Positions 38,842 through 61,491 of a DNA stretch of 64,000 nt are shown piece after piece; positions within the stretch are counted from its first letter, which is position 1; every line of letters begins with the position of its first letter. Below the pieces are notes generated by a model. The model ran no database searches. It worked only from the letters and a program-made list of their open reading frames with translations, and was not told where the DNA came from. Source of the stretch: Clostridia bacterium (GTDB taxonomy: Bacteria; Bacillota; Clostridia; Christensenellales; Aristaeellaceae); contig JAFRBK010000026.1 of the NCBI GenBank assembly GCA_017404985.1, forward strand, positions 1-64,000, given 5' to 3'. The translations under genes were made by a program, and so were the position numbers.

Positions 38842-38869
38842 TTGATACGCTGCAAAAAGCGGGATGGCA
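38842..38869 (-). promoter_or_regulatory. Shared 28-nt element, copy A
   Basis: On the minus strand TGCCA (38869-38865), 14 nt, then GCGTATCAA (38850-38842). It lies 70 nt upstream of the peptide A start. Identical in layout to copies B and C with no gaps. It resembles a two-block promoter for an alternative sigma factor, or an operator. Confidence 0.7.
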
Positions 38870-38900
38870 GTAAAATGGAAAAAAACGTCAAAAATTTTTT

Positions 38901-41156
38901 TCAGGCGGTTTCACCGGCGGGGTCTGCCATGGACCAGGTGGGCGTGAACTCACTGCCGCCGTTCATTTTATAATACCCCTTGATGATTCTGTCTACGGCA
39001 ATCCGCGCTCCCTCTGAATCCGTTCCCAGAAGGATGACCAGGAACTGCTGCCGGCTGTAACGGGTCAGGACGTCCACATTCCGGATGGCCTGCCGGATGG
39101 ACTGCTCCATACAGAACATGGACTTTTCCAGGGCTTCCAGCTGCGGCCCGTCCCCGGTGGCGCTTTCCAGCGTGACCATCAACAGCAGGAACGGCTGCCC
39201 GAAACGCTTTTCCAGATTGGTAAAGAATTCATACATCTTCGCAAACTGCCTGTATTCCACATCCATAGCACCCTGGTAGTTTCCGCTGTCCCGGATGCCC
39301 TGGACGAGCCTGTTTACATCCACCAGCTCGTTTCCGAAGTCGTCGCTTTCCTCCTGGAAGAAACAGCAATCGCTTTTCCCGTTCTGCTTCACATGGTACA
39401 GGGCTTTGTCCGCCTTATTATACACGGCGGTGTAGGAATCGGCGGGCGTGCACATGACCATGCCGGCCGAGAGGGAAGAGACGGAGATTTCCGGATCCTC
39501 GTTTTTCTTCTCGCTGAACCGGTTCAGGATGGCCCGGACGCGGGTCTCCGCATCTTCCCGGGAGACGTTTTTCAAATACAGAAGGAACTCATCCCCGCCG
39601 AGCCGGCAGCTGAGGCTGTCCTTACCGCAGGACAGGATCGTTTCGCCCATCAGGCGGAGCGCACGGTCCCCGGCTTCATGGCCGCAGGTATCGTTGATCC
39701 GCTTCAGGTTATCCATATCGAAGAATACAAAGCAGCCCGGGTTTTCCTTCATGCAACCGGCGATTGCAGACTCTCCGGCGGTCCGGCTCATCAGGCCCGT
39801 GACAACATCCACCTGGCCCGCTGAAGTCTGGGAGGCAAAGGCTTCCATCACCTCCTGCAGCAGCACGGAGGGGATCTCCTTTTCCTGCTCTTCATTTTCG
39901 GAACCGTCATTGCTGACAATGGCATCCAGGGCGCCTTTCTGCCATAACGCCAGGAAGACATCGGTAAAGCGCGGATCAAACTGTTTTCCCCGCCCGGTCT
40001 GCAGCTCGCCCAGAATATGCTCCCTGGAGCAGGCTTTCCGGTATACGCGGTTGGAGCTCATCGCATCGAAGGCATCCGCAATCGCGACGATCCGGGCTTC
40101 CTCCGAAATTTCCTCCCCTTTCAGGCCCCGCGGATATCCTTTGCCGTCATACCGTTCATGGTGGCTGCGGGCAACGGTTTCCGCCTTTTCGATGATGATT
40201 TTGTCCCTCAGGATATCCCCGCCCATGCTGGTATGGGATTTGATAATTTCAAATTCGACGTCGGTCAGGCGGCGGGGTTTATTGAGAATGGAATCCGGGA
40301 CGCCGATTTTTCCGATATCGTGCAGCAGGGCGGCGTAGCGGAGATCATTCACCCGCTCCCGGCTCCAGCCCAGGGCTTCCGCAACGGCGACGGAATACTG
40401 GCTGACGCGGGTGGAATGGCCTTTGGTGTACGGATCCTTCGCGTCGATGGCGTTGGCCAGGGTCTGGATGGTCTGGAGGGACATCTGTTCGATCTTCCGG
40501 CTTCTTTCCTCCGCTACGGCGGTTTGCCGGGTTACTTCCTCATTCAGCCGGTTGGTATGGTCGATTTCGAAAAGCGCTGTCCTGTGGTACTGTACCATGG
40601 CCAGGATCGTAAAGGCGGAAAGGGAAGCGTACATCATCGGGAAACGCATGGAGAAAGAATCCATATAGTACTGCCGGATATTGCTGCCAAGGGGGGAATA
40701 AAACACCACAAAATAAAGAACGGAATAATATACGGAAAGCACAATCCCATAACGGATTCCGACAAAATAACACATGCCGATGGGGAGCAGAATGGACCAG
40801 AGAATGCCGGTTCCTTCCGCATAGCCGGTCAGGGCATAATACGTAAAAACGATGCAGCAGAACAGCGTAGGAATCATGACCGCCGCATTCCTGTTTTTCC
40901 TGAAATGGCTCAGATACGCGCAGCCGGCTCCGGCCAGGACGGTTACGCAGGACATGACGATTTTCGCCGTATTGACCGGCGGATTCACCAGGTTCATGAC
41001 GACGAGGGCGATTCCCAGGAACGCGGTGAAAACGCTGACCGACGTCAGCGCGGTCAGGTTGGCTTTCAGGCGGTCGCCCGTATAAATCGACCGGCCCAGG
41101 GTTTTCCACAAAGCCCCGAAGGAGCGCTGCCCTTCCTGCTTCCTTTCCTGTTTCAT
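38901..41156 (-). CDS. Membrane HD-GYP protein with GGDEF domains
   Basis: A 751-aa protein with about six N-terminal membrane helices (residues 30-195). An HD-GYP domain follows (about 225-400: KGHSTRVSQYS, LLHDIGKIGVPD, HHERYDGKGYPRGL). A GGDEF domain (about 450-600) has an intact RLGGDEFLLYL, and DMDNLKRINDTCGHEAGD matches the nucleotide-binding loop. The last 130 residues look like a second, degenerate GGDEF-like domain with RYSRQQFLVIL at the signature site. It may therefore both make and break cyclic di-GMP. The start has GAGGA 6 nt upstream. Confidence 0.9.
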   Translation of the reverse strand: MKQERKQEGQRSFGALWKTLGRSIYTGDRLKANLTALTSVSVFTAFLGIALVVMNLVNPPVNTAKIVMSCVTVLAGAGCAYLSHFRKNRNAAVMIPTLFCCIVFTYYALTGYAEGTGILWSILLPIGMCYFVGIRYGIVLSVYYSVLYFVVFYSPLGSNIRQYYMDSFSMRFPMMYASLSAFTILAMVQYHRTALFEIDHTNRLNEEVTRQTAVAEERSRKIEQMSLQTIQTLANAIDAKDPYTKGHSTRVSQYSVAVAEALGWSRERVNDLRYAALLHDIGKIGVPDSILNKPRRLTDVEFEIIKSHTSMGGDILRDKIIIEKAETVARSHHERYDGKGYPRGLKGEEISEEARIVAIADAFDAMSSNRVYRKACSREHILGELQTGRGKQFDPRFTDVFLALWQKGALDAIVSNDGSENEEQEKEIPSVLLQEVMEAFASQTSAGQVDVVTGLMSRTAGESAIAGCMKENPGCFVFFDMDNLKRINDTCGHEAGDRALRLMGETILSCGKDSLSCRLGGDEFLLYLKNVSREDAETRVRAILNRFSEKKNEDPEISVSSLSAGMVMCTPADSYTAVYNKADKALYHVKQNGKSDCCFFQEESDDFGNELVDVNRLVQGIRDSGNYQGAMDVEYRQFAKMYEFFTNLEKRFGQPFLLLMVTLESATGDGPQLEALEKSMFCMEQSIRQAIRNVDVLTRYSRQQFLVILLGTDSEGARIAVDRIIKGYYKMNGGSEFTPTWSMADPAGETA

Positions 41157-41207
41157 GCTGCTGTTCCTCAGTTGATTATTGATCTCACGTGTTTATTGAT
41201 TAAATTT

Positions 41208-41236
41208 ATTTTATCAGTACCCGGGAGCAAATGCAA
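41208..41236 (-). promoter_or_regulatory. Predicted promoter of the HD-GYP/GGDEF gene
   Basis: On the minus strand TTGCAT (41236-41231), 17-nt spacer and TAAAAT (41213-41208). Confidence 0.6.
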
Positions 41237-41312
41237 GATGGTTTTCCAATCACAGGAAGGGCAGAAAGGGGGCGGGCAACGAACCTGAACGCCGCCGGAG
41301 CGGAGACGGACG

Positions 41313-41351
41313 AAAAAAAACGGTCCGGAGCCCAGCCAGGGGCTCCGGACC
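41313..41351 (-). terminator. Terminator of the second double-glycine peptide gene
   Basis: GGTCCGGAGCCC pairs with GGGCTCCGGACC and on the minus strand is followed by TTTTTTTT. Confidence 0.9.
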
Positions 41352-41367
41352 TATCCATGAGGGAGGA

Positions 41368-41619
41368 TTATACCGGGATGTAGATATAATATCCGGCGCG
41401 AATGAAGTTCCGGTTGGAGATAATTCCAATGTTCACATTCATAATCGCCTGCACGGTGGTACGATAGGTGCCGGCAATCCCGCTCAGGCATTCACCGGAT
41501 TTGACTTTGTAGACGATGCATCCGGCCTTGTCGGGCAGGCGGGTCGGGGAACCGGCAGCGCCGCCGGAGACATTTTCCAGTTCTTCCTCATGCAGTTCGT
41601 TCAGTTTCATTTCATCCAT
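41368..41619 (-). CDS. Double-glycine leader peptide with LysM cargo (B)
   Basis: An 83-aa protein. The leader (ELHEEELENVSGG, ending at Gly20) is followed by a predicted mature part of 63 residues, the same length as peptide A. Both mature parts have DKAG at positions 9/10-12/13, followed by a LysM-like domain: here YKVKSGECLSGIAGTYRTT, then NVNIGIISNRNFIRAGYYIYIP. LysM domains bind GlcNAc-containing glycans such as peptidoglycan. AAGGAGG lies about 7 nt upstream of the ATG at 41619. It has its own terminator and the shared upstream element. Confidence 0.85.
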   Translation of the reverse strand: MDEMKLNELHEEELENVSGGAAGSPTRLPDKAGCIVYKVKSGECLSGIAGTYRTTVQAIMNVNIGIISNRNFIRAGYYIYIPV

Positions 41620-41686
41620 TATTGTTTCCTCCTTCCGCAGAGCGGTTTTTTTATCTTCAGGCACCGTTTTCGCTCGGTGTCATTTA

Positions 41687-41714
41687 TTGATACGCAGCGC
41701 CGGGCAGGATGGCA
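41687..41714 (-). promoter_or_regulatory. Shared 28-nt element, copy B
   Basis: On the minus strand TGCCA (41714-41710), 14 nt, GCGTATCAA (41695-41687), 67 nt upstream of the peptide B start. Flanks are also similar to copy A (TCC after TGCCA, TAAaTG after the second block). Confidence 0.7.
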
Positions 41715-41764
41715 GCAGTGATCGAAAACATTTTTTGAAATTAACGTCTCCGGATCATGCCGGA

Positions 41765-44044
41765 TCAGAAGGCCAGGGGGACGGAATCGGTATAATGGAT
41801 CCGGCCGGAGAGATCCGTCAGGCCGAAACAATACTGATAATTCCCGGCCGGGATGGTTTCCCAGCGGAGGGAAAGGCCTTCCGCCGGGACGGTGATGGCT
41901 TTTCCTTCATACTCCCGCTCGGTACCGTCGGAAGAAACCGCGGTGAAGAGCGGAGCGATTGACATCCCTGCCTCCAGCGGGATGAAACCGCGGATCGCGA
42001 AACCGGCTTCGTCATAGCCCTGGGTGGCGCCGAGGATGGCCGTGGTACCATCGGAAGACAGGCTGCCCAGCAGATACATCTTCAGGCCTCCGATGCGGGC
42101 AGGAATCACGAAGCGAACATTCCCGTTATCATCTCCGTAGAGGATTTCAGCCCGAACCATCTGGCCGTCCAGCACCGGCCAGGAACCGTCGAACATTGAG
42201 AAAATAAGCCCTGTGGACCAGTCGATGGTGGTTTCGCCCAGGTTGCCGAGGCGGACGGTCTCCTCACCGTTCCGGATGGACAGGATGCCGCTCGCGGAAG
42301 AAAGATGGTCCAGGTCGTTTTTATTCAACTGAATGGAATAGACCATCTGGGAGGTCAGTGTGGCAGAGGAGAAGTAATCGGAAGCGGTTTCCAGCACGCT
42401 TTCCGCGGGAACGGCTTCACTGACCCCGGCCTGGACATTCTGGTTTGGCTCGCCGGGCTGATAGTATTCGGCGCCGGGATTCAACAACCCGGCCCAGATG
42501 TTGTTCAGTGCAGCGGAGGCGGAAACCGGCGCAGGGGTGGCGGCAGCCGGCGGAGTGGATTCAGAGCCCAGCCCGGCCCAGATTCCGGAGACGGACGGCG
42601 TTGCAGAGGGACCGTTATTATATCCGGCCCAGATTCCGGAGGAGGTGGAGAGACCTTCCCAGATCGATCCGGAGGAGGTGTTCAGCCCGGCCCAAATATT
42701 GCCGCCGCAGGAATTATACGCGTCCTGAAAGGAACAGGTATCGCCATAGTATCCGTTCCAGATATCGCAGAAAGCGCCTGAACAGGAGCCGCCGTAGCCG
42801 CTTGTGCTGTAAAAATCAAAGGGGGTGTAGGAAGAAGCTGTCATAGCATAGCCCGATGCGGCCGTCTGGTTGGCCATGGATACTGCCAGGGCGGCATAGG
42901 AACCGAGTTCGGCACTGTAATGGGACAGAATCTCGCTTTTATCACTGGCAACCGTCGCGAAGGGCAGGAAGAAGGAAAGCCCGTGGGCGTGGGAAGCAAT
43001 ATCACCGGTTGTGCAGTTGTAGCATACCGCCTGCTGCGCCGCGTCCTTCAGGGCGGCGCATTCATTTGGAAGCAGGGCAGAGAACACCGTGCACATATCC
43101 TCCACATCCACCAGGTCAGAGGCATCGTAATCAGCGAATTCGCCGAAGGAAACCAGCTGCTGCCGGAGGCGGACTACGCCGGAAAAGTTACTGCTCAGTT
43201 CTGCGGACAGCGCTGCGCTGAAAGCGTTCGCAGCATCCATGACCGCGGGCATTTTGCCTGTGTCGACGACGGTCATGGTGGAGGTGGCGGAAAAGTGCCC
43301 CCTGGAGTTTTCCTCCACATAGGTATCAGCGATGGATTTGGCGATGGTTTCAGAGGAAAGGGCCGGGTTATCCACGATGGGCTTCATCCAGGCGTCATAA
43401 TTGAGGCCGGTACCGTTCACCAGCTCCTGGCTTACCACAGCGTAATTCGCAATGCCGGCCAGGTCGGCGCACAGGTCCACGCAGTTCATCAGGCAGCAGT
43501 CAAACCCGATGAGATCAAACCGGGTGCCGTTCAGCCCGGACTGCAGGCCGGTTTTCAGCTCGGAGAGCGAGAGGCTGTCATCCTGAAAATTCTGATCGTT
43601 GCACAGGCCGAGCACCGGGCCGCCGCCGTGATCCCAGAAAACCATCATATATCGTTTTGCGGGAGCGGCGGAGAGAGCAAAACGCAGGAAGTCAGCCAAC
43701 GTGGACGCGTCACCCATATTGCGGCGGCCGACATCTTTCAGCAACTCAGGGGCGTTAGCACCGAGACGGTAATACTGAACGCTGCGGGAAGAAATCCCGT
43801 ACCGCTTCCATTCCGTGCAGCCGCCGGTCGCAATCAGCACCTTCACTGTGCCGGAAGCACCGATCCCGGAGGAAATCATCTCCGCAATATCTTCGGTGGC
43901 CTGACCGTCATCGCTTTCCAGGTCTGACCCGCAGATATAGGCCAGGATAGTCAGCTCATTTTCCGCGGCTTCGGCGGGAACCGGGGCTGCCGAAACGGAA
44001 AAAAACAGCACGGCGGCCAGAACAAGGCAAAGGGCTTTTTTCAC
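41765..44044 (-). CDS. Secreted C11 (clostripain-family) peptidase with IWxG repeats
   Basis: A 759-aa exported protein. The GTG at 44044 is chosen because AAGGAGG sits 8 nt upstream and a good signal peptide follows (VKKALCLVLAAVLFFSVSAAPVPAEA). The C11 domain has YICGSDLES, MMVFWDHGGGP (His139) and IGFDCCLMNC (catalytic Cys184, with an extra Cys before it). A linker near residues 430-570 contains six short repeats with Ile-Trp-x-Gly (DIWNGYY, NIWAGLN, SIWEGLS, GIWAGYN, GIWAGLG, NIWAGLL) among Ser/Thr/Pro-rich stretches. The C-terminal part is beta-rich. Its only visible upstream signal is a terminator hairpin, implying control by readthrough. Confidence 0.87.
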   Translation of the reverse strand: MKKALCLVLAAVLFFSVSAAPVPAEAAENELTILAYICGSDLESDDGQATEDIAEMISSGIGASGTVKVLIATGGCTEWKRYGISSRSVQYYRLGANAPELLKDVGRRNMGDASTLADFLRFALSAAPAKRYMMVFWDHGGGPVLGLCNDQNFQDDSLSLSELKTGLQSGLNGTRFDLIGFDCCLMNCVDLCADLAGIANYAVVSQELVNGTGLNYDAWMKPIVDNPALSSETIAKSIADTYVEENSRGHFSATSTMTVVDTGKMPAVMDAANAFSAALSAELSSNFSGVVRLRQQLVSFGEFADYDASDLVDVEDMCTVFSALLPNECAALKDAAQQAVCYNCTTGDIASHAHGLSFFLPFATVASDKSEILSHYSAELGSYAALAVSMANQTAASGYAMTASSYTPFDFYSTSGYGGSCSGAFCDIWNGYYGDTCSFQDAYNSCGGNIWAGLNTSSGSIWEGLSTSSGIWAGYNNGPSATPSVSGIWAGLGSESTPPAAATPAPVSASAALNNIWAGLLNPGAEYYQPGEPNQNVQAGVSEAVPAESVLETASDYFSSATLTSQMVYSIQLNKNDLDHLSSASGILSIRNGEETVRLGNLGETTIDWSTGLIFSMFDGSWPVLDGQMVRAEILYGDDNGNVRFVIPARIGGLKMYLLGSLSSDGTTAILGATQGYDEAGFAIRGFIPLEAGMSIAPLFTAVSSDGTEREYEGKAITVPAEGLSLRWETIPAGNYQYCFGLTDLSGRIHYTDSVPLAF

Positions 44045-44063
44045 GGGCAGGACCTCCTTAACG

Positions 44064-44087
44064 AAAAAAACCGCCGTTTCCGGCGGG
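44064..44087 (-). terminator. Hairpin just upstream of the GTG-start C11 gene
   Basis: On the minus strand CCGCCG-GAAA-CGGCGG is followed by TTTTTTT, then within 4 nt by the AAGGAGG ribosome binding site. It ends the 180-aa gene and could attenuate the peptidase gene. Confidence 0.85.
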
Positions 44088-44099
44088 AAAATGCATGGT

Positions 44100-44642: not shown

Positions 44643-44740
44643 CTGAAAATCCTCCCTGTTTCATAGAATCAAGTTGCCACAACGAGCATTATATCACCGG
44701 ATGGGAAAAAAAACGAGAGGTTTTTTTGGTGCGTTTTCGG

Positions 44741-44769
44741 TTGTCCGGAAGGGGAAAAGCGGATATAAT
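44741..44769 (+). promoter_or_regulatory. Predicted promoter of the 231-aa gene and ybaK
   Basis: TTGTCC (44741-44746), 17-nt spacer and perfect TATAAT (44764-44769). Confidence 0.6.
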
Positions 44770-44845
44770 ACTAATACTCAAAGAAACCTGAGGTGAACGG
44801 AATAAAAACGCTCTGTGCAGCGGAAAACACCGGAGGATGATTGAT

Positions 44846-45541: not shown

Positions 45542-45559
45542 GAAACGGGTGAAAAACGG

Positions 45560-46033: not shown

Positions 46034-46049
46034 AACGAAAAAAACGCGT

Positions 46050-46082
46050 AAAAAAACAGCTGCTGCGGAAAAGCGCAGCAGC
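46050..46082 (-). terminator. Terminator of the surface protein gene
   Basis: GCTGCTGCG pairs with CGCAGCAGC; the A-run at 46050-46056 gives a T-run on the minus strand. It also lies just downstream of ybaK. Confidence 0.75.
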
Positions 46083-46115
46083 ACAGGAAACACGGCGACG
46101 CATTCACAGCGCCTG

Positions 46116-47452: not shown

Positions 47453-47466
47453 CCATTGGGAAGGCA

Positions 47467-49071
47467 TTATCCTTTACGGAATCTCAGCACATTCCACGAT
47501 TCCTTCTTCAGGACCGCGGTGACAATGCCGTGATCCATGGTGGTGTCGGCGTTTTTTCGGGGCATGATCCGGTCCGGATGGCTGAAGGTATTCTGCGCCT
47601 CAGGATCATCAGAAAATAATTCAGTGTGTTCCTTCAGCTGCCAGTTTTCGAAGGCGCGAAGATCCATCGTCAGTTCCTGGTCCTCCTCCGGATCCGCGTT
47701 GATGACGAAAACGGAGAGCTCTTCCTCCGGTTCGTTCAGGGCCGCGGCGGCCTGGATTGTCTCCACACCGGTGAAGCCGCCGTACTGGTTCATGTCGTCG
47801 ATGGCATAGCCGGGCACGTCGTAGGTTTCGCAGGTGACTTCGCATTGCAGGGAATCGCCCTTGGCCAGGCGAATCAGCTGGGTGAAGGGCCAGTAGGATG
47901 CCCCCTTCCAGACATGCTCCCGGTCTGTGCGGCACAGGGCAGCCAGGCCGCCGGTGGCACAGCCGATCCGGATTCGATCCGCGTGGCGCAGCATCACCAG
48001 CATCGTGCCGGCAAGGCCGAGCGCCTGCAGCATTTCGTGATCCGATGGCGGGTTCCGGCGGGTGGACCAATCGTCCGGATCATGGCGGACATAGGTTCTT
48101 TCCGGATTGAAGAGGCCGAACATTTCCGGGTTCTGGCGGCCGCCAAGGCCGAGGTGCGCCTCGCTCCGCGGGCGGAACATGGAAGCATATTCATCCAGCG
48201 CCAGCATCATGGTCTTTTTTGAGCGGAGCTTGGTTCGGATATAATCGCACAGGGCGATTTCCGTGCGGATATAATCCTCATAAGCCAGGTAACCGGCCAT
48301 CAGGGCCCGGGGCAGATCCGGCGGCGCGGAATGATAGTGATGCAGAGAAATGTAATCCACGGTGCTGTAGCATTCTTCCAGCACTTCCCGATCCCAGTCC
48401 GGATAATGGTTCAGGAAAGGGGAGGAGGAGACACATGCCATGGTTTCGATTGTGGGGTCTATCCATTTCATGGCTTTGGAGGTTTCGTGCGCCAGAATGC
48501 CGTAACCCCGGGGATTTTTCTCCATGGAACCGACCTGCCAGGGGCCGTCCATTTCATTGCCGAGGCACCAGATTTTAACGCCGTAGGGCGCTTCACGGCC
48601 GTTCTGCTTCCGCAGGTCAGACCAGTAAGTGCCGCCTGTGAAATTGGTATATTCGACGCAGTCCATCGCGTCCTGCATGGTGCCGGTGGCCAGATTAACG
48701 GTGTAGATGGCTTCTGCGCCGGCTTTTTCCGCCCACTGCAGATATTCATCATGGCCGACATCGTTGGGGATGAACTGGAACCAGGCCGGATCCAGGTGTG
48801 CTTTACGCTTCTCCTTCGGGCCGATGGAGTCCTTCCACTGCCAGCCGGAAACAAAGTTGCCGCCGGGGAGGCGCACCGCCGGCAGGCGGGTTTCCCGCAG
48901 GGCTTCATAGAAATCCCGGCGAAGCCCCTGCTCATCCGCAAAAGGATGCTTCGGATTGTACATGCTGCCGTTGACCATGGAACCGATCGGCTCCAGGAAT
49001 GCCCCGAAAAGCCGGGGTGAAATGCTTCCGACCCGGTAGGAAGGGTGCAGCGCCAGGCTCGATTTTTTCAT
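47467..49071 (-). CDS. Alpha-L-arabinofuranosidase, GH51
   Basis: A 534-aa enzyme without a signal peptide, so it probably acts in the cytoplasm on imported arabino-oligosaccharides. GH51 landmarks: the N-terminal GSISPRLFGAFLEPIG, PAVRLPGGNFVSGWQW, the acid/base Glu in WCLGNEMDGPWQ, SLHHYH, and the nucleophile Glu in ALDEYASMF. The GNE pattern and overall length match the family. The ATG at 49071 follows GAGGAGG; the longer upstream frame crosses the promoter. It may cooperate with the GH127 enzyme 12 kb away. Confidence 0.95.
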   Translation of the reverse strand: MKKSSLALHPSYRVGSISPRLFGAFLEPIGSMVNGSMYNPKHPFADEQGLRRDFYEALRETRLPAVRLPGGNFVSGWQWKDSIGPKEKRKAHLDPAWFQFIPNDVGHDEYLQWAEKAGAEAIYTVNLATGTMQDAMDCVEYTNFTGGTYWSDLRKQNGREAPYGVKIWCLGNEMDGPWQVGSMEKNPRGYGILAHETSKAMKWIDPTIETMACVSSSPFLNHYPDWDREVLEECYSTVDYISLHHYHSAPPDLPRALMAGYLAYEDYIRTEIALCDYIRTKLRSKKTMMLALDEYASMFRPRSEAHLGLGGRQNPEMFGLFNPERTYVRHDPDDWSTRRNPPSDHEMLQALGLAGTMLVMLRHADRIRIGCATGGLAALCRTDREHVWKGASYWPFTQLIRLAKGDSLQCEVTCETYDVPGYAIDDMNQYGGFTGVETIQAAAALNEPEEELSVFVINADPEEDQELTMDLRAFENWQLKEHTELFSDDPEAQNTFSHPDRIMPRKNADTTMDHGIVTAVLKKESWNVLRFRKG

Positions 49072-49126
49072 TGGCAAGGTTCCTCCTCTGTAATCAACAG
49101 GATGGTCTCTGCGCGCGATATAAAAT

Positions 49127-49155
49127 ATTGTAATCCGGAAGAAAAGCCGGAGCAA
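49127..49155 (-). promoter_or_regulatory. Predicted promoter of the GH51 gene
   Basis: On the minus strand TTGCTC (49155-49150), 17-nt spacer and TACAAT (49132-49127). Confidence 0.5.
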
Positions 49156-49236
49156 CACTTTTATCTGTCTTTTTTCTGAGAAGAATGATATAATTCGGTA
49201 ATTCCCGGTAAAGCCGCTGTTGATGGAGTGAATGGA

Positions 49237-49998
49237 ATGCAGGTTACGCCCGTAATGTTTCTGATTGTCTGCCCGATGCTGTTTCTGGCGGGGCTGGTGG
49301 ATTCCATCGGCGGGGGAGGAGGGCTGATCTCCCTGCCGGCTTATCTTTTTGCGGGATTGCCGGCGCATATGGCGGTGGCAACGAACAAGCTTTCTTCCAC
49401 ATGCGGCACATCCCTGGCCACAGCCCGTTTTTTTCGCAGGGGGCTGGTGAACCTTCGCCTGGCGGCCCCGTCCGTGGTGACAGGGGTTGCCGGATCCGCC
49501 CTGGGGGCGAGGCTGTCCTTGGCTGTCAGCGAGGATGTAATGAAATACGTCCTGTTCGCGGTTCTTCCGCTGGCGGCGTTTGTTGTCCTGAACCGGCATT
49601 TGTTCCGGGACGAGGGAAAGCACGCGGCTGTGGCGGACCGGAAAACCGTGGCGATCTGCGTTGCCTCCGCTTTTGTGATTGGGGTGTATGACGGGTTTTA
49701 CGGCCCCGGTACGGGGACTTTTCTGATTATTGCATTTACGGCTTTTGCCGGGATGACGGTCGGTTCCGCCAATGCGCAGGCCAAGGTGATTAACCTGACG
49801 ACGAACATTACCTCCCTGGCTGTCTTTTTGCTGAACGGGCAGGTGCTGGTTCCGCTGGGGCTGGCTGCTGCGGCGTGCAACATGGCGGGAAACTGGATCG
49901 GCTCAGGGCTGGCGGTATCCAAAGGTGCGAAGATTGTCCGCCCGGTCATTCTGCTGGTCCTGATCCTTCTGCTGCTTAAAATTCTGATTGGCTTCTGA
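49237..49998 (+). CDS. TSUP-family membrane transporter (TauE/SafE-like)
   Basis: A 253-aa protein with about eight hydrophobic helices. The first half has DSIGGGGGLISLPAYL and ATNKLSST, and the second half repeats this as YDGFYGPGTGTFLII and NAQAKVINLTTNI, the two-fold motif of the family. Members export sulphonates, sulphite or other organosulphur or organic anions; the substrate is unknown. The ATG at 49237 has GGAG 8 nt upstream. A TATAAT at 49189-49194 probably marks its promoter. Confidence 0.93.
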   Translation: MQVTPVMFLIVCPMLFLAGLVDSIGGGGGLISLPAYLFAGLPAHMAVATNKLSSTCGTSLATARFFRRGLVNLRLAAPSVVTGVAGSALGARLSLAVSEDVMKYVLFAVLPLAAFVVLNRHLFRDEGKHAAVADRKTVAICVASAFVIGVYDGFYGPGTGTFLIIAFTAFAGMTVGSANAQAKVINLTTNITSLAVFLLNGQVLVPLGLAAAACNMAGNWIGSGLAVSKGAKIVRPVILLVLILLLLKILIGF

Positions 49999-50893: not shown

Positions 50894-51044
50894 GTTTGCT
50901 TCCTTTCTGCCGCTGTGCGGCCTGTGTTGTATCTTTTGATGTATTGTATCATAGGGAATCGAAAAAGTACACCATGCTCACCCGGCGCTGTCCGGCACAG
51001 TAAATTCCGGCTTTTTTCTGCTTTTGGAAATGAAAAGAGTATGC

Positions 51045-51050
51045 TATAAT
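51045..51050 (+). promoter_or_regulatory. Predicted -10 element of the receptor/EAL gene
   Basis: A perfect TATAAT at 51045-51050; the -35 region (TTTTGG at 51022-51027, 17-nt spacer) is weak. Because it lies inside the longest open frame, translation must start downstream. Confidence 0.55.
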
Positions 51051-51125
51051 ACAAAAAAATTGATCACTTGCATGAAATACGATACAGCTGATTCCGAAAA
51101 AGCCGATGTTCCGGAGGCGAATAAA

Positions 51126-54080
51126 GTGCAGAATCCAGAAAGAAAAGTCAACAGGGAGGGCGCCCAGAGGCCGGTATTCATCCGGGCAGGGGCTGCCGCG
51201 GCAGCCCTTTGCCTGCTGCTGGTGCTGGTTTCGGGAATTGCTGCTCCGCGGGCGGCTGCCGCCCAGGAAAAAGAACAGAAAAAAGTCCGCGTTGGCTGGT
51301 ATGAATCTGCGTTTCACCGGACGGATCCGTTCGGACGGCGTTCCGGATACGGGTATGAATACCAGCAGCGGATCTCGATCTATACCGGCTGGGAATATGA
51401 ATATGTGGAAGGCAGCTGGTCGGAACTGCTGGAGAAACTGATCGCCGGCGAGCTGGATCTGCTCAGCGATGTGTCCTATACCCCCGAGCGGGCGGAAAAG
51501 ATTCTGTATTCCGCTGAAGCGATGGGATCAGAAGGCTATCATGTTTTCATAGCACCGGATAATAACGAGATTCGGCCGGACGATTTTTCCACCCTGAACG
51601 GAAAACGGGTCGGCGTCAACAAGAACAGCATTCAGGAACGGCTGTTCATCAGCTGGGCGGAGAGCCACGGCGTGACGCCGGAAATCATTGAATCGACCGA
51701 GAAAACGCCGGTGTTGCTGGAAATGCTGGCGAAGGGCGATTTCGACGCGCTGGTAACGCTGGATACCTACGGAAACTCCGCTGATGTGATTCCGGTGTGC
51801 AAGGTTGGTTATGCTGAATCTTTTTTTGGAATCAACAGGAACCGCCCAGACCTGAAGCAGGATCTGGATGTGGCCATGAACCGCCTCTTTGAGGACAATC
51901 GGGATTACAACCAGCAGTTGACGGAGAAATTCAATCGTTCCAGCTCGGTCAACAGTTTTCTGACGCCGGAAGAAAAAAATTGGCTTGCAGGCAGGGAAAC
52001 GATTCGGGTAGGCTACCGGAACAACTTCCTCCCGTTCTGCTCGCAGGATAAAGAAACAAAGCAGGTTTCCGGCGCGCTGGCAGACTACCTCTACTTCGCG
52101 GAAACATGCCAGAAGAATGCCCGCCTGAGCTTTGAGACACGGGCTTTCAGCTCAACAGAGGAGGCGCTGAAAGCCCTGGCAGACGGCGAGATCGACTGTG
52201 TATTTCCCCTGAGCCTCAGCGCTTATGATGGGGAACAGCGGGGCGTGATCAGCACGGATCCGCTGGTTCGTTCGGAGATGTATGCCATCGTCCGGACTGC
52301 GGACCACCAGGGACTGGAGCGGGAACGGGAGACGACCGTTGCCATCGTCAGGGGAAACCCGAATTACGAAGCGTTCGTGAAAGACTATTTTCCCAACTGG
52401 AAGGTAGTTGAATATGACAGCGGCGAAGCGGCCTATGCAGCGGTGTCTTCCGGGGATGTGGACTGCGGGCTGGTAAGCAATTACCGGATCAGCCGTGTGA
52501 GTGACCAGCTCAGGGAATACAAGCTTTCCGCCCTCGCGACCGATGAAGTGATGGATGCTGCTTTTACCGTGAGGCGGAAGGATGACTGCCTCTATTCCAT
52601 TCTCAACAAGATAACCCGCCTTTATCCGGAGAGCATGGTCAATTCCTCCCTGACGAATTACGGCTTCCGGGAGGAAGAAGTTTCCTTCATTGATTTTATC
52701 CGGAAGAATCTGCTTTATATTGTTGCGGCAGCAGCGCTGATTATTATCACAATTCTGCTCCTGGCGCTGCGGAACGCGAAGACCAGCGCAAGGGAAAAGG
52801 AGGGCCGCCGGATTATTTCCGAGGCGGAGAAGGATTCCCTGACGCAGCTGTACAACTGGAACTTTTTCCTTGTTTATGCCAACAATATCTGCCGGGACAA
52901 CCCGGACCGCCCAATGGACGCGGTGGCGCTGAATATTGACCGGTTTCATTCCGTGAATGCCCTGCACGGGCGGGAGTATGGGAACCGGATGCTGAAGGCT
53001 TTGGGCGATGAGATTCACAGTTTCCTTGAAAAAGCGGACGGAATAGCCTGCCGTTCCGTTGCGGACCGCTTCAATATATATTGCCTTCACCGGGAGGACT
53101 GGCAGGCTGTGCTGGAACGCTTTCAGGGGCGCCTGGACCGTGAGTTCCGGGAAGCCAACGCCCATCTGCGCATGGGCGTCAAGCCCTGGCAGAAGGTCCT
53201 GGAGCCTGAAACACAGCTGGACAAGGCCCGCACTGCTTGCAACAAGGTGCGCGGCGGAATCAAATCCCAGGCGGTAATCTATGATGCAGAGATGGAACAG
53301 CGGGAGGAACGTGACCAGCGCCTGCTGAACGATCTTCCCCGGGCGCTGGAAAACCATGAGCTGGAAGTGTATTATCAGCCGAAGTATAACATCACAGGGG
53401 AGAAGCCGAAGCTGGCGAGCGCTGAGGCACTGGTTCGCTGGAAACACCCGGAACTGGGAATGATTTCCCCGGAGGACTTTATCAATCTGTTTGAGAGAAG
53501 CGGCCAGATCAGTCTGCTGGACAACTATGTGTGGTCGGAGGCGGCCCGGCAGATTGCCGCCTGGCGGGACCAGTACGGCAGAACCCTGCCGGTATCCGTT
53601 AACCTTTCCCGTGTGGACGTGTTTGATCCGGAACTGATTTCCATCCTGGACCGCATTGTGGCAGAAAACAGGCTGAAGCACTGCGACCTGAAGCTGGAGA
53701 TGACTGAATCCGCCTACACTGAAAACGCAGACCAGCTGATTCGGGTCATCAACCAGCTCCGGAGCAGGGGATATGAGATCGAAATGGATGACTTTGGTTC
53801 CGGCTATTCCTCGCTGAATATGCTGTCCTCCCTGCCCGTGGATGTGCTGAAGATGGATATCGACTTTATCCGGAATATTGAAAGAAATGAGAAGGATTTC
53901 CGCCTTGTGGAGCTGATCATCGATATTGCCCGGTATCTGCATGTGCCTGTCGTGGCGGAGGGCGTGGAGACGGAAACCCAGCTAAAACTGCTCAAAAATG
54001 CGGGCTGCGACCTGGTGCAGGGATACTATTTCTCGCGTCCGCTGCCCGCGAAGGAGTTTGCCCGGACACTCCTTGGCTGA
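51126..54080 (+). CDS. Membrane receptor with two SBP-like domains, degenerate GGDEF and EAL
   Basis: A protein of about 984 aa. The GTG at 51126 is chosen for GGAGG 8 nt upstream and a good signal anchor; the -10 box excludes the longest frame, and the ATG at 51072 lacks a site. Two extracytoplasmic SBP_bac_3-like domains follow (KVRVGWYESAFHRTDPFGRRSGYGYEY; then TIRVGYRNNFLPFCSQDKET), as in BvgS-type sensors, then one transmembrane helix (about residues 560-580). The GGDEF-like domain has CRSVADRF at the signature site, so it is catalytically dead. The EAL domain keeps SAEALVRWKHPELG, LEMTES and MDDFGSGYSS, so cyclic di-GMP hydrolysis in response to a ligand is likely. Confidence 0.9.
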   Translation: MQNPERKVNREGAQRPVFIRAGAAAAALCLLLVLVSGIAAPRAAAAQEKEQKKVRVGWYESAFHRTDPFGRRSGYGYEYQQRISIYTGWEYEYVEGSWSELLEKLIAGELDLLSDVSYTPERAEKILYSAEAMGSEGYHVFIAPDNNEIRPDDFSTLNGKRVGVNKNSIQERLFISWAESHGVTPEIIESTEKTPVLLEMLAKGDFDALVTLDTYGNSADVIPVCKVGYAESFFGINRNRPDLKQDLDVAMNRLFEDNRDYNQQLTEKFNRSSSVNSFLTPEEKNWLAGRETIRVGYRNNFLPFCSQDKETKQVSGALADYLYFAETCQKNARLSFETRAFSSTEEALKALADGEIDCVFPLSLSAYDGEQRGVISTDPLVRSEMYAIVRTADHQGLERERETTVAIVRGNPNYEAFVKDYFPNWKVVEYDSGEAAYAAVSSGDVDCGLVSNYRISRVSDQLREYKLSALATDEVMDAAFTVRRKDDCLYSILNKITRLYPESMVNSSLTNYGFREEEVSFIDFIRKNLLYIVAAAALIIITILLLALRNAKTSAREKEGRRIISEAEKDSLTQLYNWNFFLVYANNICRDNPDRPMDAVALNIDRFHSVNALHGREYGNRMLKALGDEIHSFLEKADGIACRSVADRFNIYCLHREDWQAVLERFQGRLDREFREANAHLRMGVKPWQKVLEPETQLDKARTACNKVRGGIKSQAVIYDAEMEQREERDQRLLNDLPRALENHELEVYYQPKYNITGEKPKLASAEALVRWKHPELGMISPEDFINLFERSGQISLLDNYVWSEAARQIAAWRDQYGRTLPVSVNLSRVDVFDPELISILDRIVAENRLKHCDLKLEMTESAYTENADQLIRVINQLRSRGYEIEMDDFGSGYSSLNMLSSLPVDVLKMDIDFIRNIERNEKDFRLVELIIDIARYLHVPVVAEGVETETQLKLLKNAGCDLVQGYYFSRPLPAKEFARTLLG

Positions 54081-54094
54081 AAGGATGGTTGGGG

Positions 54095-56518: not shown

Positions 56519-56569
56519 AGTGAAATAGTCTCCTTCTCCAAAGCCTGTGGCTACGAAAGACCCTGTTTC

Positions 56570-56598
56570 AGTATATCATGCGGCGGAACAAGTGTAAA
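56570..56598 (-). promoter_or_regulatory. Predicted promoter of the GGDEF-EAL gene
   Basis: On the minus strand TTTACA (56598-56593), 17-nt spacer and TATACT (56575-56570). Confidence 0.65.
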
Positions 56599-56627
56599 CC
56601 GCCAAAAAGAAAAGCACCGGAAAGAAA

Positions 56628-57059
56628 TCAGCGAAAGACGAATATTTGCGCCAGGAGGCTCAGCACAGCCGAAGCGGCGATCCAGATCCATCCGACGCGG
56701 ACCATCCAGGAGCCAGACTCATGATTTTCCTCCTCCAGATGAAAGCGGGAAGGATTGTTTCTGTCATAGAACAGCGGAACGATGTCGCCCGGGCGCAGCT
56801 TCTGCTCCCAGTGGTACACGCGGGACTGAACCCGGTATTGCTTGCCTTCTGCGGAAAAGTCCAGCACCGGGTGATACCCGTATTTCCAGGAATACCGGCC
56901 GGTCGAATGGGCTTTTTTGACGTAATGCACAAACACGGCGTCGGCCTGCTCCAGTTCTGTTCTCTGGCGGCGGTTGTATCGCAGCATGGATATCAGGCCA
57001 TAGGCTAGAAAAGCCCAGCCTGCCAGGGAAAAGGCGAGAAAACACCACAGCATTTTCAT
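56628..57059 (-). CDS. DUF3592-like membrane protein, 143 aa
   Basis: A small protein with two membrane helices, one at each end (about residues 3-25 and 120-140), and a soluble middle (HPVLDFSAEGKQYRVQSRVYHWEQKLRPGDIVPLFYDRNNPSRFHL). The 'Y.P.F.f...G........G..v.v.Ydp.nP' pattern is that of DUF3592, a domain of unknown function. It starts 16 nt after a secreted-protein gene on the same strand and is probably in that operon. Confidence 0.82.
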   Translation of the reverse strand: MKMLWCFLAFSLAGWAFLAYGLISMLRYNRRQRTELEQADAVFVHYVKKAHSTGRYSWKYGYHPVLDFSAEGKQYRVQSRVYHWEQKLRPGDIVPLFYDRNNPSRFHLEEENHESGSWMVRVGWIWIAASAVLSLLAQIFVFR

Positions 57060-57075
57060 CTTCAGGCACCGTCCG

Positions 57076-57825
57076 TCAATCCATCGGGCCGGCCGGATAA
57101 TCCGAGTGGCTCACTTTGACCAGCAGCCCGGCCTCAAACCATGCGTCCGTATTCCAGGGGGTATACCATGCTTCCGAGATATCCGCCAGGAAGGCTTCCG
57201 GCCCGCCTTCATTGCCGGCAGCATAATCCTCGAAGATGAATTTTTCGGGCAGCGGCAGCCGGATCGCGATCTCCTCCAGATACGTGCAGGGCGACCAGTC
57301 ATTCTGCACAGCTCTGTACTCATTTTCCGAAACCGGCGCGAAGCCGATGTAGCCGTCAACAGTTTCCGATGGAATCAGCTCATAGTGCGAGAATTCAAAG
57401 CTCCCCGGCGCATCTTTCAGGTCGCCGTCCACCACGCGCTCACAGGCATCCAGCAGTTCCCGGTTCTTTTCCAGGTCCTGAACCAGCGTGCAGGAGAGGT
57501 CGGCTTCCCCGTCTCCGTCTGAATCAAAATAACCGCAGGTCAGCATTACGGCGACAGTGTACGCTGTCCCGTTCACAGCCACGGTATCCCAGGGCTTCAG
57601 GTTCTCAATCTGCGCCCCGTCATACCGGTCTTCCGAATAAACAGAAAGCCTGAACCAGCCCTCCTCCAGATGCCCGGCGTCCTCAACGCCGATGCAGTAT
57701 TTCCCTTCCAGGGGCCCGGAACTGTCCCGGGCCGCCGGCTTTGGCAGCACGGATACCGGTCCGTCCGCGCAGGCGGCGCCGGCCAGCAGCAACACTGAGA
57801 GAAGCAAAACAACGATTTTTTTCAT
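57076..57825 (-). CDS. Secreted protein of unknown function, 249 aa
   Basis: The signal (MKKIVVLLLSVLLLAGAACA) is followed by a domain that opens with LEGKYCIGVEDAGHLEEGWFRLSVYSEDRYDGAQIENLKPWDTVAVNG, resembling the 204-aa protein at 37732-38346. Aspartate-rich DSDGDGEAD near residue 110 looks like a calcium-binding (dockerin- or EF-hand-like) loop. No further domain was recognised. The ATG at 57825 has GGAGG 8 nt upstream. It precedes the DUF3592-like gene. Confidence 0.75.
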   Translation of the reverse strand: MKKIVVLLLSVLLLAGAACADGPVSVLPKPAARDSSGPLEGKYCIGVEDAGHLEEGWFRLSVYSEDRYDGAQIENLKPWDTVAVNGTAYTVAVMLTCGYFDSDGDGEADLSCTLVQDLEKNRELLDACERVVDGDLKDAPGSFEFSHYELIPSETVDGYIGFAPVSENEYRAVQNDWSPCTYLEEIAIRLPLPEKFIFEDYAAGNEGGPEAFLADISEAWYTPWNTDAWFEAGLLVKVSHSDYPAGPMD

Positions 57826-57896
57826 GCCCATGTCCTCCGTTTATGCGCTATTATACCACAAAGAATCCATGGCTGAAAAGGAACGTTCAGGATGAA

Positions 57897-57925
57897 ATGA
57901 CAAGACGAATCAATGATGGTATAAT
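57897..57925 (+). promoter_or_regulatory. Predicted promoter of the MATE gene
   Basis: ATGACA (57897-57902), 17-nt spacer and perfect TATAAT (57920-57925). The divergent 57825 gene has its own TATAAT at 57855-57850 on the minus strand. Confidence 0.7.
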
Positions 57926-57979
57926 CCCTCATGGCTTCCGGGAGGAAAAAAGGCGGGAAACGCGGAAGGGGGAAACACG

Positions 57980-59371
57980 GTGAGAGCCAAAGGCAGGTTT
58001 GACTGGGCGATGCTGGGCACTGTGTTTGCCCTGGCCTGGCCCACCATGCTCGAGCAGCTGACCCAGACCGCCGTGCAGTATATCGACACGGCCATGGTGG
58101 GGTCCCTGGGCACTGAAGCCACCGCTGCCGTCGGCGCAACCGGCACCGTGAACTGGATGATTGGCAGCATCGTTTCCGCGGCCGGCGTCGGTTTCCTGGC
58201 CTATATTGCCCGGAATATCGGGGCGGGGGAACCGGAGGCGGCGAAAAAAGCCAGCGCCCAGGCCTGTATGATTACCCTGGTGCTTGGTACTGTGCTGACG
58301 GCGGTCACCGTGTCGCTTTCCGGCCGGATTCCGGCCTGGATGCAGGCGGATCCTGCCATCCGGGATCTGGCATCCCGGTATTTCCGGATTTTGTATTGGC
58401 CGATGCTGTTCCGCACCGCCTCCATTCTGCTGGCCACTGTGCTCCGTGCCGCCGGGGATACACGCACGCCCATGCGCGTAGGCCTGGTGGTAAATGGGCT
58501 GAACATTCTGCTGAACTTTTTCCTGATCTATCCGGCCCGACAGGTGAACCTGTTTGGACTGGCCGTATCCCTGCCCGGCGCAGGCCTCGGAGTGGAGGGG
58601 GCAGCCCTGGCCAGTGCGCTCTGCTTTGTTTATGGCGGTGCTGCCATGTTCCGGGCGGTATGGAAGCATCCGGCGGTTTCCCCAAAGGGGTATTCGCTCC
58701 GGCCGAACCCGGTTATTCTGCGGCCCTGTTTCCGGGTGGCGCTGCCCAACCTGGCGCAGCGCTTTGGGACCTGTTTCGGATATGTGGTGTTCGCTTCAAT
58801 GATCAACGGCCTGGGCGGGACTTCCACCGCCGCCCATACCATTGCGAATACGGTGGAAAGCCTCTTTTATATTCCCGGCTACGGCATGCAGACGGCCGCG
58901 GCCACTCTGAGCGGAAACGCCTGGGGAGCGAAGGACCACGATCGGCTGAAGCGCCTGGGCAGCACGGTGCTTCCTCTGGAAGTCTGCCTGATGGTTTTCT
59001 CCGGCGCCGCGCTTTTCCTGACCGCGGAACCGCTGGTTCGCCTGTTTACCCGGGATGAGAACGTAGTTCGCCTGGGGACGACGGTGCTTCGTATGGTGGC
59101 GGTTTCCGAGCCTTTCTACGGTGTACCCATCGTTGTGGAAGGGCTTATGCAGGGCGTCGGAAAAACGACGGCTCCCTTTGTTTATAACATTATCGGCATG
59201 TGGGCCGTGCGGATTGCCGGCACCTTTATCTGTATCCGTGTGCTGCATCTGGGGCTCGAGGCGGCCTGGGGCTGCATGATCGGCCATAACCTGCTGCTCT
59301 TTTTCCTGTTTACCTGTCACTACCTGACCGGGCGGTGGGACCCGTTTCAGAAAAAAAGCAGGGCGGCGTGA
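57980..59371 (+). CDS. MATE-family multidrug/metabolite exporter
   Basis: A 463-aa membrane protein with twelve predicted helices in two similar halves. Landmarks: WPTMLEQLTQTAVQYIDTAMVGSLGTEATAAVG in the first half, and GYVVFASMINGLGGTSTAAHTIANTVESLFYIPGYGMQTAAATLSGNAWGA in the second. MATE exporters use Na+ or H+ gradients to expel cations or metabolites; the substrate is unknown. It starts with GTG at 57980 and has AAGGGGG 7 nt upstream. It lies upstream of the GH127 gene, which has its own promoter. Confidence 0.94.
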   Translation: MRAKGRFDWAMLGTVFALAWPTMLEQLTQTAVQYIDTAMVGSLGTEATAAVGATGTVNWMIGSIVSAAGVGFLAYIARNIGAGEPEAAKKASAQACMITLVLGTVLTAVTVSLSGRIPAWMQADPAIRDLASRYFRILYWPMLFRTASILLATVLRAAGDTRTPMRVGLVVNGLNILLNFFLIYPARQVNLFGLAVSLPGAGLGVEGAALASALCFVYGGAAMFRAVWKHPAVSPKGYSLRPNPVILRPCFRVALPNLAQRFGTCFGYVVFASMINGLGGTSTAAHTIANTVESLFYIPGYGMQTAAATLSGNAWGAKDHDRLKRLGSTVLPLEVCLMVFSGAALFLTAEPLVRLFTRDENVVRLGTTVLRMVAVSEPFYGVPIVVEGLMQGVGKTTAPFVYNIIGMWAVRIAGTFICIRVLHLGLEAAWGCMIGHNLLLFFLFTCHYLTGRWDPFQKKSRAA

Positions 59372-59377
59372 TTCCGC

Positions 59378-59406
59378 TTGTGCCATGCCGGCGGTTCTGA
59401 TACAAT
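59378..59406 (+). promoter_or_regulatory. Predicted promoter of the GH127 gene
   Basis: TTGTGC (59378-59383), 17-nt spacer and TACAAT (59401-59406). Confidence 0.5.
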
Positions 59407-59442
59407 GGAAAAAAGAAAAAATCGACAGGGGAGGCGGAGCGG

Positions 59443-61455
59443 ATGATCAGCCCGAAGGATGTCCGTATCACCGACGAATTCTGGCAGACGGAGCAGGAGC
59501 TTGTGCGCACGGAAGTGATTCCGTATCAGTGGGAGGCGTTGAACGACCGCGTTCCGGGGGCAGCTCCCAGCTTTGCGATCCATAATTTCCGGGCGGCGCG
59601 GTCGCTGCGGGAGCGGTCCCATGCGCCTGGTTTCCGGGCGCCGGTATTCGGAAATGTACCCTTTGAGGTGCTGCCGGAGGACCCTGAACATCCGGATCCG
59701 GAGCGGTTTTACGGCTTCGTGTTCCAGGATACGGATCTGTATAAATGGATCGAGGCGGTGGCCTATTCCCTGATGCGCCACCCGGACGCCGAACTGCAGG
59801 CGACGGCGGACGGGGCGATCCGCCTGATTGCGGAAGCCCAGGCGGAGGATGGGTATCTGGATACCTATTATATTCTGAACGGGCGGGACAGAACCTTTAC
59901 CAACCTGCGGGACCATCACGAGCTGTACTGCTTCGGCCATCTGACGGAAGCCGCCGTGGCATATCACCAGGCGACGGGAAACGGGATGCTGCTGGAGGTG
60001 GCGGAACGGTTCGCGGGGTATATTGCGGAGAAAATCGGCCCGGAAGAGGGAAAGAAGCACGGCTACCCCGGCCACGAAATCGCGGAAATGGCGCTGGTCC
60101 GCCTGTATGAGGAAACCGGGAAGGATGAATACCTGCGGCTGAGCCGGTATTTTATTGACGAGCGCGGGAAGGAGCCGAACTGGTTCGCGCTGGAGGGAAA
60201 CCCGCCGCCGGAGTATGAAAAGCCGGAAATCCCTTATTCCTACTATCAGGCACACCGCCCCGTGCGGGAACAGGATGAGGCGAAAGGCCACGCGGTGCGG
60301 GCCATGTATCTGTACAGCGGAATGGCGGATATCGCCCGGCTGACGGGGGATGAGTCGCTGAAGGAAGCCTGCCGCGCCCTGTTCCGGAGCACGACCCGCG
60401 AAAAGATGTATATTACCGGCGGCGTGGGCTCCACCCATATCGGTGAAGCATTTACCTTTCCCTTTGACCTGCCGAACGACCTTGCATATACGGAATCCTG
60501 CGCTGCCATCGGGCTTTGCTTCTTCGCACGCAGAATGCTGGAGCTGGAGGCAAGGGCGGAATACGCCGACGTGATGGAGCGGGCTCTGTATAACAATGTG
60601 CTGAGCGGGATTGCCCTGGACGGAAAGAGCTTTTTCTATGTCAATCCGCTGGAGGTCTGGCCGGAGGCGACTCACCGGGATGCCCGCAAGCTTCATGTCA
60701 AGCCGGTGCGCCAGAAATGGTTCGGCTGCGCCTGCTGCCCGCCGAATATCGCGAGGCTGCTGGGCTCGCTCGGCTCCTATGCCTATACGGAGCGGGACAA
60801 CACGCTGTATGTCCACCTGTATATGGGATCGGAAGTCACCCTGCACAGGGAGAGCGGAGAGGTTCGCGTGCGGGTTGCGGTGGACCGGGAGGATCCGGAA
60901 CGGTGGACGGTTCGGATCCGGATATACGCGGCGGCAAAGGATTTCACCCTGGCGCTGCGGATTCCCGGGTGGAGCCGGGAGTGTGTTCTCCGCGGCGCGG
61001 AAGGCGCCGAAAACAGGGAGGAAAACGGATACATTTACCTGCGGAAAGATTGGAAAGACGGGGAGGAAATCACGCTGGAACTGCCCTGCCCGGTGCGCTT
61101 CCTTCGCGCGGACAGCCGCGTCAGGGAAGACAGCGGGAAGATTGCTGTGATGCACGGGCCCTTCGTTTACTGCCTGGAGGAGTGGGATAACGGGAAAAAC
61201 CTGAACCTTGTCTCCATCCGGCGCGGGACCAGGCCGGAGGAGGTTGCTTTTGAAAAAGCGGAGGTTGCCGGGCGGCCGGTAACCGTGCTGCGGGTGCCTG
61301 GGCAGCGGGAGGAGGAAGTGACGGACCGGGGCCTGTATTACGAGGCGGAATGCGCCGGAACGGAGGCAGGGCCGGTGACCCTGGCCATGATTCCGTATTA
61401 CGCCTGGGCGAACCGGGGGGAGAATGAAATGCAGGTATGGACCAGAATTTTTTAA
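59443..61455 (+). CDS. Beta-L-arabinofuranosidase, GH127
   Basis: A 670-aa enzyme without a signal peptide, so probably cytoplasmic. It matches the HypBA1-type family that removes beta-L-arabinofuranose from hydroxyproline-linked arabinans of plant glycoproteins. Key features: the zinc and nucleophile Cys motif FGCACCPPN near residue 430, the upstream YTESCAAIG with the Glu and Cys ligands, and the (alpha/alpha)6-barrel segments EAQAEDGYLDTYY and HELYCFGHLTEAAVAYHQATG. AGGGGAGG lies about 8 nt upstream. With the GH51 enzyme it points to use of plant arabinosyl material. Confidence 0.95.
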   Translation: MISPKDVRITDEFWQTEQELVRTEVIPYQWEALNDRVPGAAPSFAIHNFRAARSLRERSHAPGFRAPVFGNVPFEVLPEDPEHPDPERFYGFVFQDTDLYKWIEAVAYSLMRHPDAELQATADGAIRLIAEAQAEDGYLDTYYILNGRDRTFTNLRDHHELYCFGHLTEAAVAYHQATGNGMLLEVAERFAGYIAEKIGPEEGKKHGYPGHEIAEMALVRLYEETGKDEYLRLSRYFIDERGKEPNWFALEGNPPPEYEKPEIPYSYYQAHRPVREQDEAKGHAVRAMYLYSGMADIARLTGDESLKEACRALFRSTTREKMYITGGVGSTHIGEAFTFPFDLPNDLAYTESCAAIGLCFFARRMLELEARAEYADVMERALYNNVLSGIALDGKSFFYVNPLEVWPEATHRDARKLHVKPVRQKWFGCACCPPNIARLLGSLGSYAYTERDNTLYVHLYMGSEVTLHRESGEVRVRVAVDREDPERWTVRIRIYAAAKDFTLALRIPGWSRECVLRGAEGAENREENGYIYLRKDWKDGEEITLELPCPVRFLRADSRVREDSGKIAVMHGPFVYCLEEWDNGKNLNLVSIRRGTRPEEVAFEKAEVAGRPVTVLRVPGQREEEVTDRGLYYEAECAGTEAGPVTLAMIPYYAWANRGENEMQVWTRIF

Positions 61456-61463
61456 ATTTCTGC

Positions 61464-61491
61464 TGCCACATTTCCAAACCATGCGTATCAA
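61464..61491 (+). promoter_or_regulatory. Shared 28-nt element, copy C
   Basis: TGCCA (61464-61468), 14 nt, GCGTATCAA (61483-61491), 74 nt upstream of the peptide C start. Both conserved blocks and their spacing equal those of copies A and B. The intervening sequence differs, which argues against simple duplication. Confidence 0.7.

Follow-up and report, generated by a model that had tools for sequence, protein, structure and literature searches.

A probable ECF sigma factor promoter upstream of double-glycine-leader proteins in uncultured Clostridia

A bipartite DNA element found upstream of small exported proteins in uncultured, largely ruminant-gut Clostridia is very probably (at roughly 0.8, in our estimate from sequence comparison) a promoter read by a single ECF sigma factor, which would control many such proteins and often its own operon. 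The consensus, CTGCCR-N15/16-CGTATMAA-N3-RTG, often with a 5' stem-loop after it, is well supported and best read as an ECF-type promoter. RNA polymerase carrying a 158-amino-acid ECF sigma factor would read CTGCCR as the -35 and CGTATMAA as the -10 element, transcription would probably begin at the R of the conserved RTG, and many transcripts would open with a stem-loop. The predicted targets are double-glycine-leader proteins, several with LysM, and proteins with Sec or lipoprotein signals; the sigma operon itself would be a target in many species, as would stand-alone copies of its partner reading frame in two genomes. No description of this regulon was found in the open literature searched.

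The window (the whole 64,000-nucleotide stretch of DNA that was analyzed) contains three exact copies of TGCCA-N14-GCGTATCAA, at 38842-38869 and 41687-41714 on the minus strand and at 61464-61491 on the plus strand, and no fourth, just as the first-pass annotation had it. The two other matches listed for the window have three mismatches each, which is chance level (5 found in all versus 5.24 expected). In extended form, predicted promoter 1 occupies 38842..38870 (minus strand; -35 CTGCCA at 38865-38870, -10 CGTATCAA at 38842-38849), with 15 nt separating TGCCA from CGTAT; promoter 2 occupies 41687..41715 (minus strand; CTGCCA at 41710-41715, CGTATCAA at 41687-41694) and promoter 3 occupies 61463..61491 (plus strand; CTGCCA at 61463-61468, CGTATCAA at 61484-61491). 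Transcription would be expected to start at 38838, 41683 and 61495, respectively. The elements lie 70, 67 and 74 nt from the start codons, within the 67-74 nt originally described, and each precedes a gene whose product carries a double-glycine leader; GG marks the cleavage site in 3 of 3.

Promoter 1 is followed by an 86-residue LysM protein (38511..38771, minus strand; leader end ELNEEELEEVSGG), which matches PF01476 at E 8.9e-5 and 22.8 bits against a cut-off of 20.9, and promoter 2 by an 83-residue LysM protein (41368..41619, minus strand; leader end ELHEEELENVSGG; PF01476 E 2e-9). The protein downstream of promoter 3 has 98 residues (61566..61862, plus strand; leader end ELNADQLEQVIGG), and its C-terminal part is SH3-like, with an SH3_3 match (E 1.2e-4, 22.7 bits) that falls below the 27-bit cut-off. 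Two of the window peptides score 15.8 and 15.7 bits with the TIGR01847 model (cut-off 15.7), and the third is not among the matches listed. A stem-loop at 38814..38837 (minus strand; -12.8 kcal/mol, z -5.3) comes directly after the GTG of promoter 1, and another, at 41662..41679 (minus strand; -6.7 kcal/mol, z -3.6), after the ATG of promoter 2; the plus-strand complement of the latter scored as terminator-like. The hairpin downstream of promoter 3 is weak (z -0.3).

Elsewhere in the window, 33594-35312, 38901-41156 and 51024-54080 encode HD-domain, HD plus GGDEF, and GGDEF plus EAL proteins, respectively, with the HD plus GGDEF gene lying between two of those for the peptides. Two genes of arabinofuranosidase type (Alpha-L-AF_C/ASD1 and GH127) are present at 47467-49623 and 59443-61455, and the GH127 reading frame ends 8 nt before promoter 3 begins.

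The source genome (G000) is a 2.98-Mb draft of 52 contigs. A genome-wide scan with up to one mismatch, the check suggested when the element was first noted, returned four exact copies and one with a single mismatch, and none for the reversed-pattern control. All four exact copies precede leader peptides, the fourth (C47:77243-77270) lying upstream of another double-glycine LysM protein, and the many random matches that would have counted against a regulon did not appear. A 29-base pattern searched at up to three mismatches was too noisy to use (60 matches versus 41 in the control), and from it only the single one-mismatch and the single two-mismatch match were retained. With the spacing set at 15 or 16 nt, the source genome has 9 sites (control 1). 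Among 150 genomes of the family there are 74 exact copies, in 20 genomes, with none in the reversed control, and a relaxed extended pattern gives 242 matches against 10 in the control. Two of the exact sites (L010 and L011) lie within other genes and appear to be chance occurrences. At the level of the order, 5 of 297 genomes match with up to one mismatch, four of the same genus and one of another family, while the control columns gave 2 matches.

Conservation extends beyond the bases used for searching. In an alignment of 68 exact sites (the 74 minus two intragenic sites, two truncated at contig ends and two masked), the unselected position before TGCCA is C in 59, the T and G of NNNRTG occur in 56 and 63, respectively, and the upstream stretch is A/T-rich; between the blocks conservation is weak, the strongest position being a T before GCGTAT (42 of 68). 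A second set comprises 68 inexact sites from ECF-positive genomes, among the matches listed; it leaves out three G079 sites and an identical duplicate from G099, includes G100 in part, and has none from G054, G076, G081 or G103. Mismatches in these sites number 3 in CGTAT, 7 in TGCC and 17 at the A of TGCCA (mostly to G), and fall most often on the first G (29) and the C (28, mostly to A) of GCGTATCAA. The original description of a gap-free element with identical blocks and fixed spacing thus holds for the three window sites; in the wider set, TGCC[AG] and CGTAT are separated by 15 or 16 nt, and the same G and C of GCGTATCAA vary.

The -35/-10 geometry, the A/T-rich upstream DNA and the RTG near the expected transcription start together support an alternative sigma factor promoter. 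One of the two options originally offered, an ECF-like promoter, is supported; in addition, one ECF gene co-occurs with the motif and carries the same promoter in 28 of 47 named loci (see below). The other, a site for a dimeric regulator, appears less likely. Variation of 1 nt in spacing is rarely compatible with a rigid dimer site. At another ECF gene of the source genome (L103; C5, minus strand), TGTCA-N16-CGTCTATTCAAGTG is found just upstream with RTG in the equivalent position, which may mean that ECF promoters of this lineage generally use RTG as an initiator.

The same bases might also be read as a sigma-A promoter (CTGCCA, 17 nt, TATCAA) aided by an activator that touches the additional conserved positions, with the ECF gene merely one target. 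By eye, CTGCCA-N17-TATCAA does fit a weak housekeeping geometry, and the ECF operon of G100 has a sigma-A-looking TTGATT/TACAAT stretch in place of the motif. Against this stand the CG just before the TATCAA hexamer, which is near-invariant (1 mismatch in the 68 inexact sites) while the C inside the hexamer is replaced in 28 of 68, the spacing of either 15 or 16 nt, and the tendency of the motif to follow the ECF gene from genome to genome. The initial annotation had seen no housekeeping promoter near the three window genes, and a sigma-70-type scan of their upstream regions agreed, remaining below threshold throughout. A sigma-A promoter with an activator is regarded as improbable.

Folding of the 40 nt from RTG onward, compared with shuffled sequences, gave a mean z of -2.30 over 66 sites, with 35 below -2, and controls were weaker (-0.09 for the next window along, -0.51 and -0.30 for upstream windows). 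A stem-loop at so many sites would be expected if the conserved blocks acted in the transcript as a cis-acting RNA element rather than as a promoter. That reading is nonetheless very hard to sustain: the stretch between the blocks is weakly conserved, the stem-loop begins after RTG, as expected of a 5' end, and an Rfam scan of 10 loci returned no match at the gathering threshold. With the element taken as a promoter, the stem-loop might still have a role of its own.

ECF sigma factors consist of regions 2 and 4 only and are about 160-200 amino acids in length. The source genome has 18 Sigma70_r2 matches, and a position matrix of the motif found no copy within 300 nt upstream of these 18 sigma genes; a candidate sigma was therefore sought by comparing genomes. 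(Large sigma complements occur in this group: G132 (3.5 Mb) and G066 (3.3 Mb), of the same genus, have 39 and 30 Sigma70_r2 matches, respectively.) In two genomes of the same genus as the source, the relaxed motif lies directly before a sigma gene whose orthologue is present in the source genome (C48:37578-38054, equivalent to L107:1246-1722). The encoded protein has 158 residues and, by its profile matches, is an ECF factor with regions 2 and 4 only: Sigma70_r2 scores 58.8 bits (cut-off 24), Sigma70_r4 54.4 bits (cut-off 24.1) and TIGR02937 106.9 bits (cut-off 42.9). After the ECF superfamily, its nearest NCBIfam models are the BldN family (TIGR02952) and SigZ (NF007215), and it falls outside both equivalogs (104.8 versus 206.45 bits; 99.7 versus 212 bits).

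A profile built from an alignment of six copies, applied at a threshold of 240 bits, found the orthologue in 27 of the 150 family genomes; 14 others match only more weakly, reaching at most 151 bits. At least three relaxed motifs are present in 18 of the 27 orthologue-positive and 6 of the 123 orthologue-negative genomes (Fisher 5.3e-12), and the association persists within genera (permutation p 5e-5; 47 genomes, in 9 genera with both kinds, with motif counts limited to 10 per genome). Both association tables were transcribed by hand. Two genomes of the same genus, G091 and G149, are 97% and 95% complete and have 25 and 15 Sigma70_r2 matches, yet carry neither the ECF orthologue nor the motif. 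Exact copies are absent from thirteen of the 27 ECF-positive genomes. Three of the 27 also lack any relaxed match, although two of those three have the motif before the ECF gene. The 158-residue ECF protein is strongly indicated as the cognate sigma factor of the motif, and we infer that it would recognize the promoter directly.

The six orthologue-negative genomes with at least three relaxed motifs (G006 has eleven) are what would be expected if the motif were the binding site of a regulator that is not a sigma factor, its distribution matching that of the ECF gene by coincidence. Four of the six belong to genera that also contain ECF-positive genomes, and missing contigs may account for such cases. 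Given the promoter-like context, in which a start-like RTG and A/T-rich upstream DNA flank the motif, and spacing that shifts by 1 nt, a coincidence of this kind is judged highly improbable.

A promoter on the ECF operon itself is common. The orthologue occurs, at 54-80% identity, in 47 named loci. Apart from one Christensenella sp. and one Oscillospiraceae, these come from uncultured Clostridia or Clostridiales, and ruminant gut is the site given for many. TGCC[AG]-N15/16-CGTAT precedes the ECF operon in 28 of the 47, with 14 at each spacing, and on the opposite strand in none (0.14 expected). Of the 27 family ECF genes, 24 were located, and 15 of these loci have the promoter; the 47-locus and 24-locus sets likely overlap in genomes, and their counts should not be treated as independent. 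In the 28 promoters, collected with this looser pattern, the base ahead of TGCC is C in 27 and the one after CGTATnA is A in all 28, and the R, T and G of RTG are present in 24, 21 and 26. These unselected positions agree with those of the target promoters, and in many species the bipartite promoter is shared by the ECF operon and the target genes. It is missing from 19 of the 47 named operons, and in the source genome, where the ECF operon lies behind another gene, it is absent within 600 nt and further up the stretch read. The system resembles other ECF sigma factors with autoregulated operons, with which it shares a two-domain sigma (Sigma70_r2 and Sigma70_r4), a bipartite promoter and, in many species, a promoter of its own.

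Just before the ECF gene, 46 of the 47 named loci have a reading frame of about 65 codons. Among the members of this partner family that were scanned, no Pfam or NCBIfam family scored above its curated cut-off, and the structure model is poor (pLDDT 62.1, pTM 0.29). A leader matrix made from 24 target leaders with GG omitted was run on 27 partners (both sets being a selection), and the best match ended exactly at the would-be GG position in 27 of 27. Scores of 26 of the 27 exceeded the 99th percentile of 268 background windows, and the partner median was 17.3, against a 99th percentile of 9.7 and a maximum of 15.6 for shuffled partners. A profile-profile comparison of partners and leaders aligned the expected 15 columns (probability 11.6, E 0.0026). 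At the GG positions themselves, all 27 partners examined have AA, in place of the GG, GA or GS of a double-glycine leader.

An anti-sigma gene beside an ECF gene is common, though not universal, and the partner may be a feedback or anti-sigma regulator. In Pseudomonas aeruginosa, the small soluble protein CfrX is proposed, in the available part of one account, to be the anti-sigma of SigX (ECF102), acting together with a porin and an ion channel (PMC8999054). A small, soluble candidate anti-sigma would be common to the two systems as far as that account describes them, and the partner here differs in resembling a double-glycine leader. A more specific and rather doubtful proposal gives the partner the role of a soluble anti-sigma derived from a double-glycine leader that cannot be cleaved: the tail of the partner would copy the cargo leader with Ala-Ala for Gly-Gly and so could report occupancy of the C39 exporter or back-up of cargo. 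Transcription of the peptides would then be linked to export flux, and stand-alone partner copies would set the gain of the feedback; if this holds, cells would possess a novel means of gauging their own peptide export. Stand-alone copies with the promoter occur in two genomes, one of them the source genome (C48:30923). Locus L188 (G100:C65) has two partner-like reading frames, one with the promoter, and no ECF match nearby.

Under a rule-based classification, the genes downstream of the 74 exact sites comprise 25 double-glycine leaders, 17 proteins with Sec or lipoprotein signals, 11 membrane proteins and 1 ECF-partner copy; a further 10 fit no class, 6 are masked or unreadable, and 2 are truncated at contig ends. 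The same rule assigned 4 double-glycine leaders, 23 Sec or lipoprotein-signal proteins and 57 membrane proteins among 226 background frames, so enrichment is strong for leaders, moderate for signal proteins and absent for membrane proteins. The classes are rough; by eye, three more double-glycine cases that were masked or classed as other bring the leaders to 28 of 74. In the source genome, the 9 sites with spacing 15 or 16 and the one- and two-mismatch sites make 11, and all 11 precede fitting genes: 6 double-glycine peptides, 4 Sec or lipoprotein-signal proteins and 1 partner copy, with signal calls made by eye. A regulon, as first suggested, is well supported by sequence, but one not confined to double-glycine peptides, as Sec-signal proteins are among the targets.

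Three of the four peptides at the exact sites of the source genome (all but 61566-61862) have LysM PF01476 above the gathering cut-off, and all four score below the cut-off with the class II bacteriocin model PF10439 (13.1-19.2 versus 27.1 bits). They share GG leaders with the double-glycine peptides (TIGR01847, PF10439) exported by C39-peptidase ABC transporters, and the source genome has three Peptidase_C39 matches; the cargo differs, being a LysM or SH3-like domain and not a known bacteriocin. The TcdR/BotR/UviA-type sigmas of Clostridium are likewise dedicated to secreted products, namely toxins or bacteriocins, and the part of the literature source available describes a marked sequence divergence of that group (PMC8103513). 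As far as that source goes, the present system differs in having a recognizable ECF sigma and in targeting LysM/SH3-like and signal-peptide proteins. For an uncultured lineage this defines a regulon that consists of one probable sigma factor, a single promoter code and a set of exported leader proteins of the LysM/SH3-like kind. The promoter locates non-bacteriocin double-glycine proteins by sequence alone, and the purpose of these proteins thereby becomes testable.

One further double-glycine-like peptide of the source genome (L006:11110-11343, minus strand, on C47; leader end ELNPEELEKVSGG) lies 3.5 kb from a regulon gene and has no match to the exact or spacing-15/16 motif patterns. A small membrane protein with GHPV or GHPA near its N-terminus recurs after the promoter in several genera (L014, L030, L070, L072, L082 and L090).
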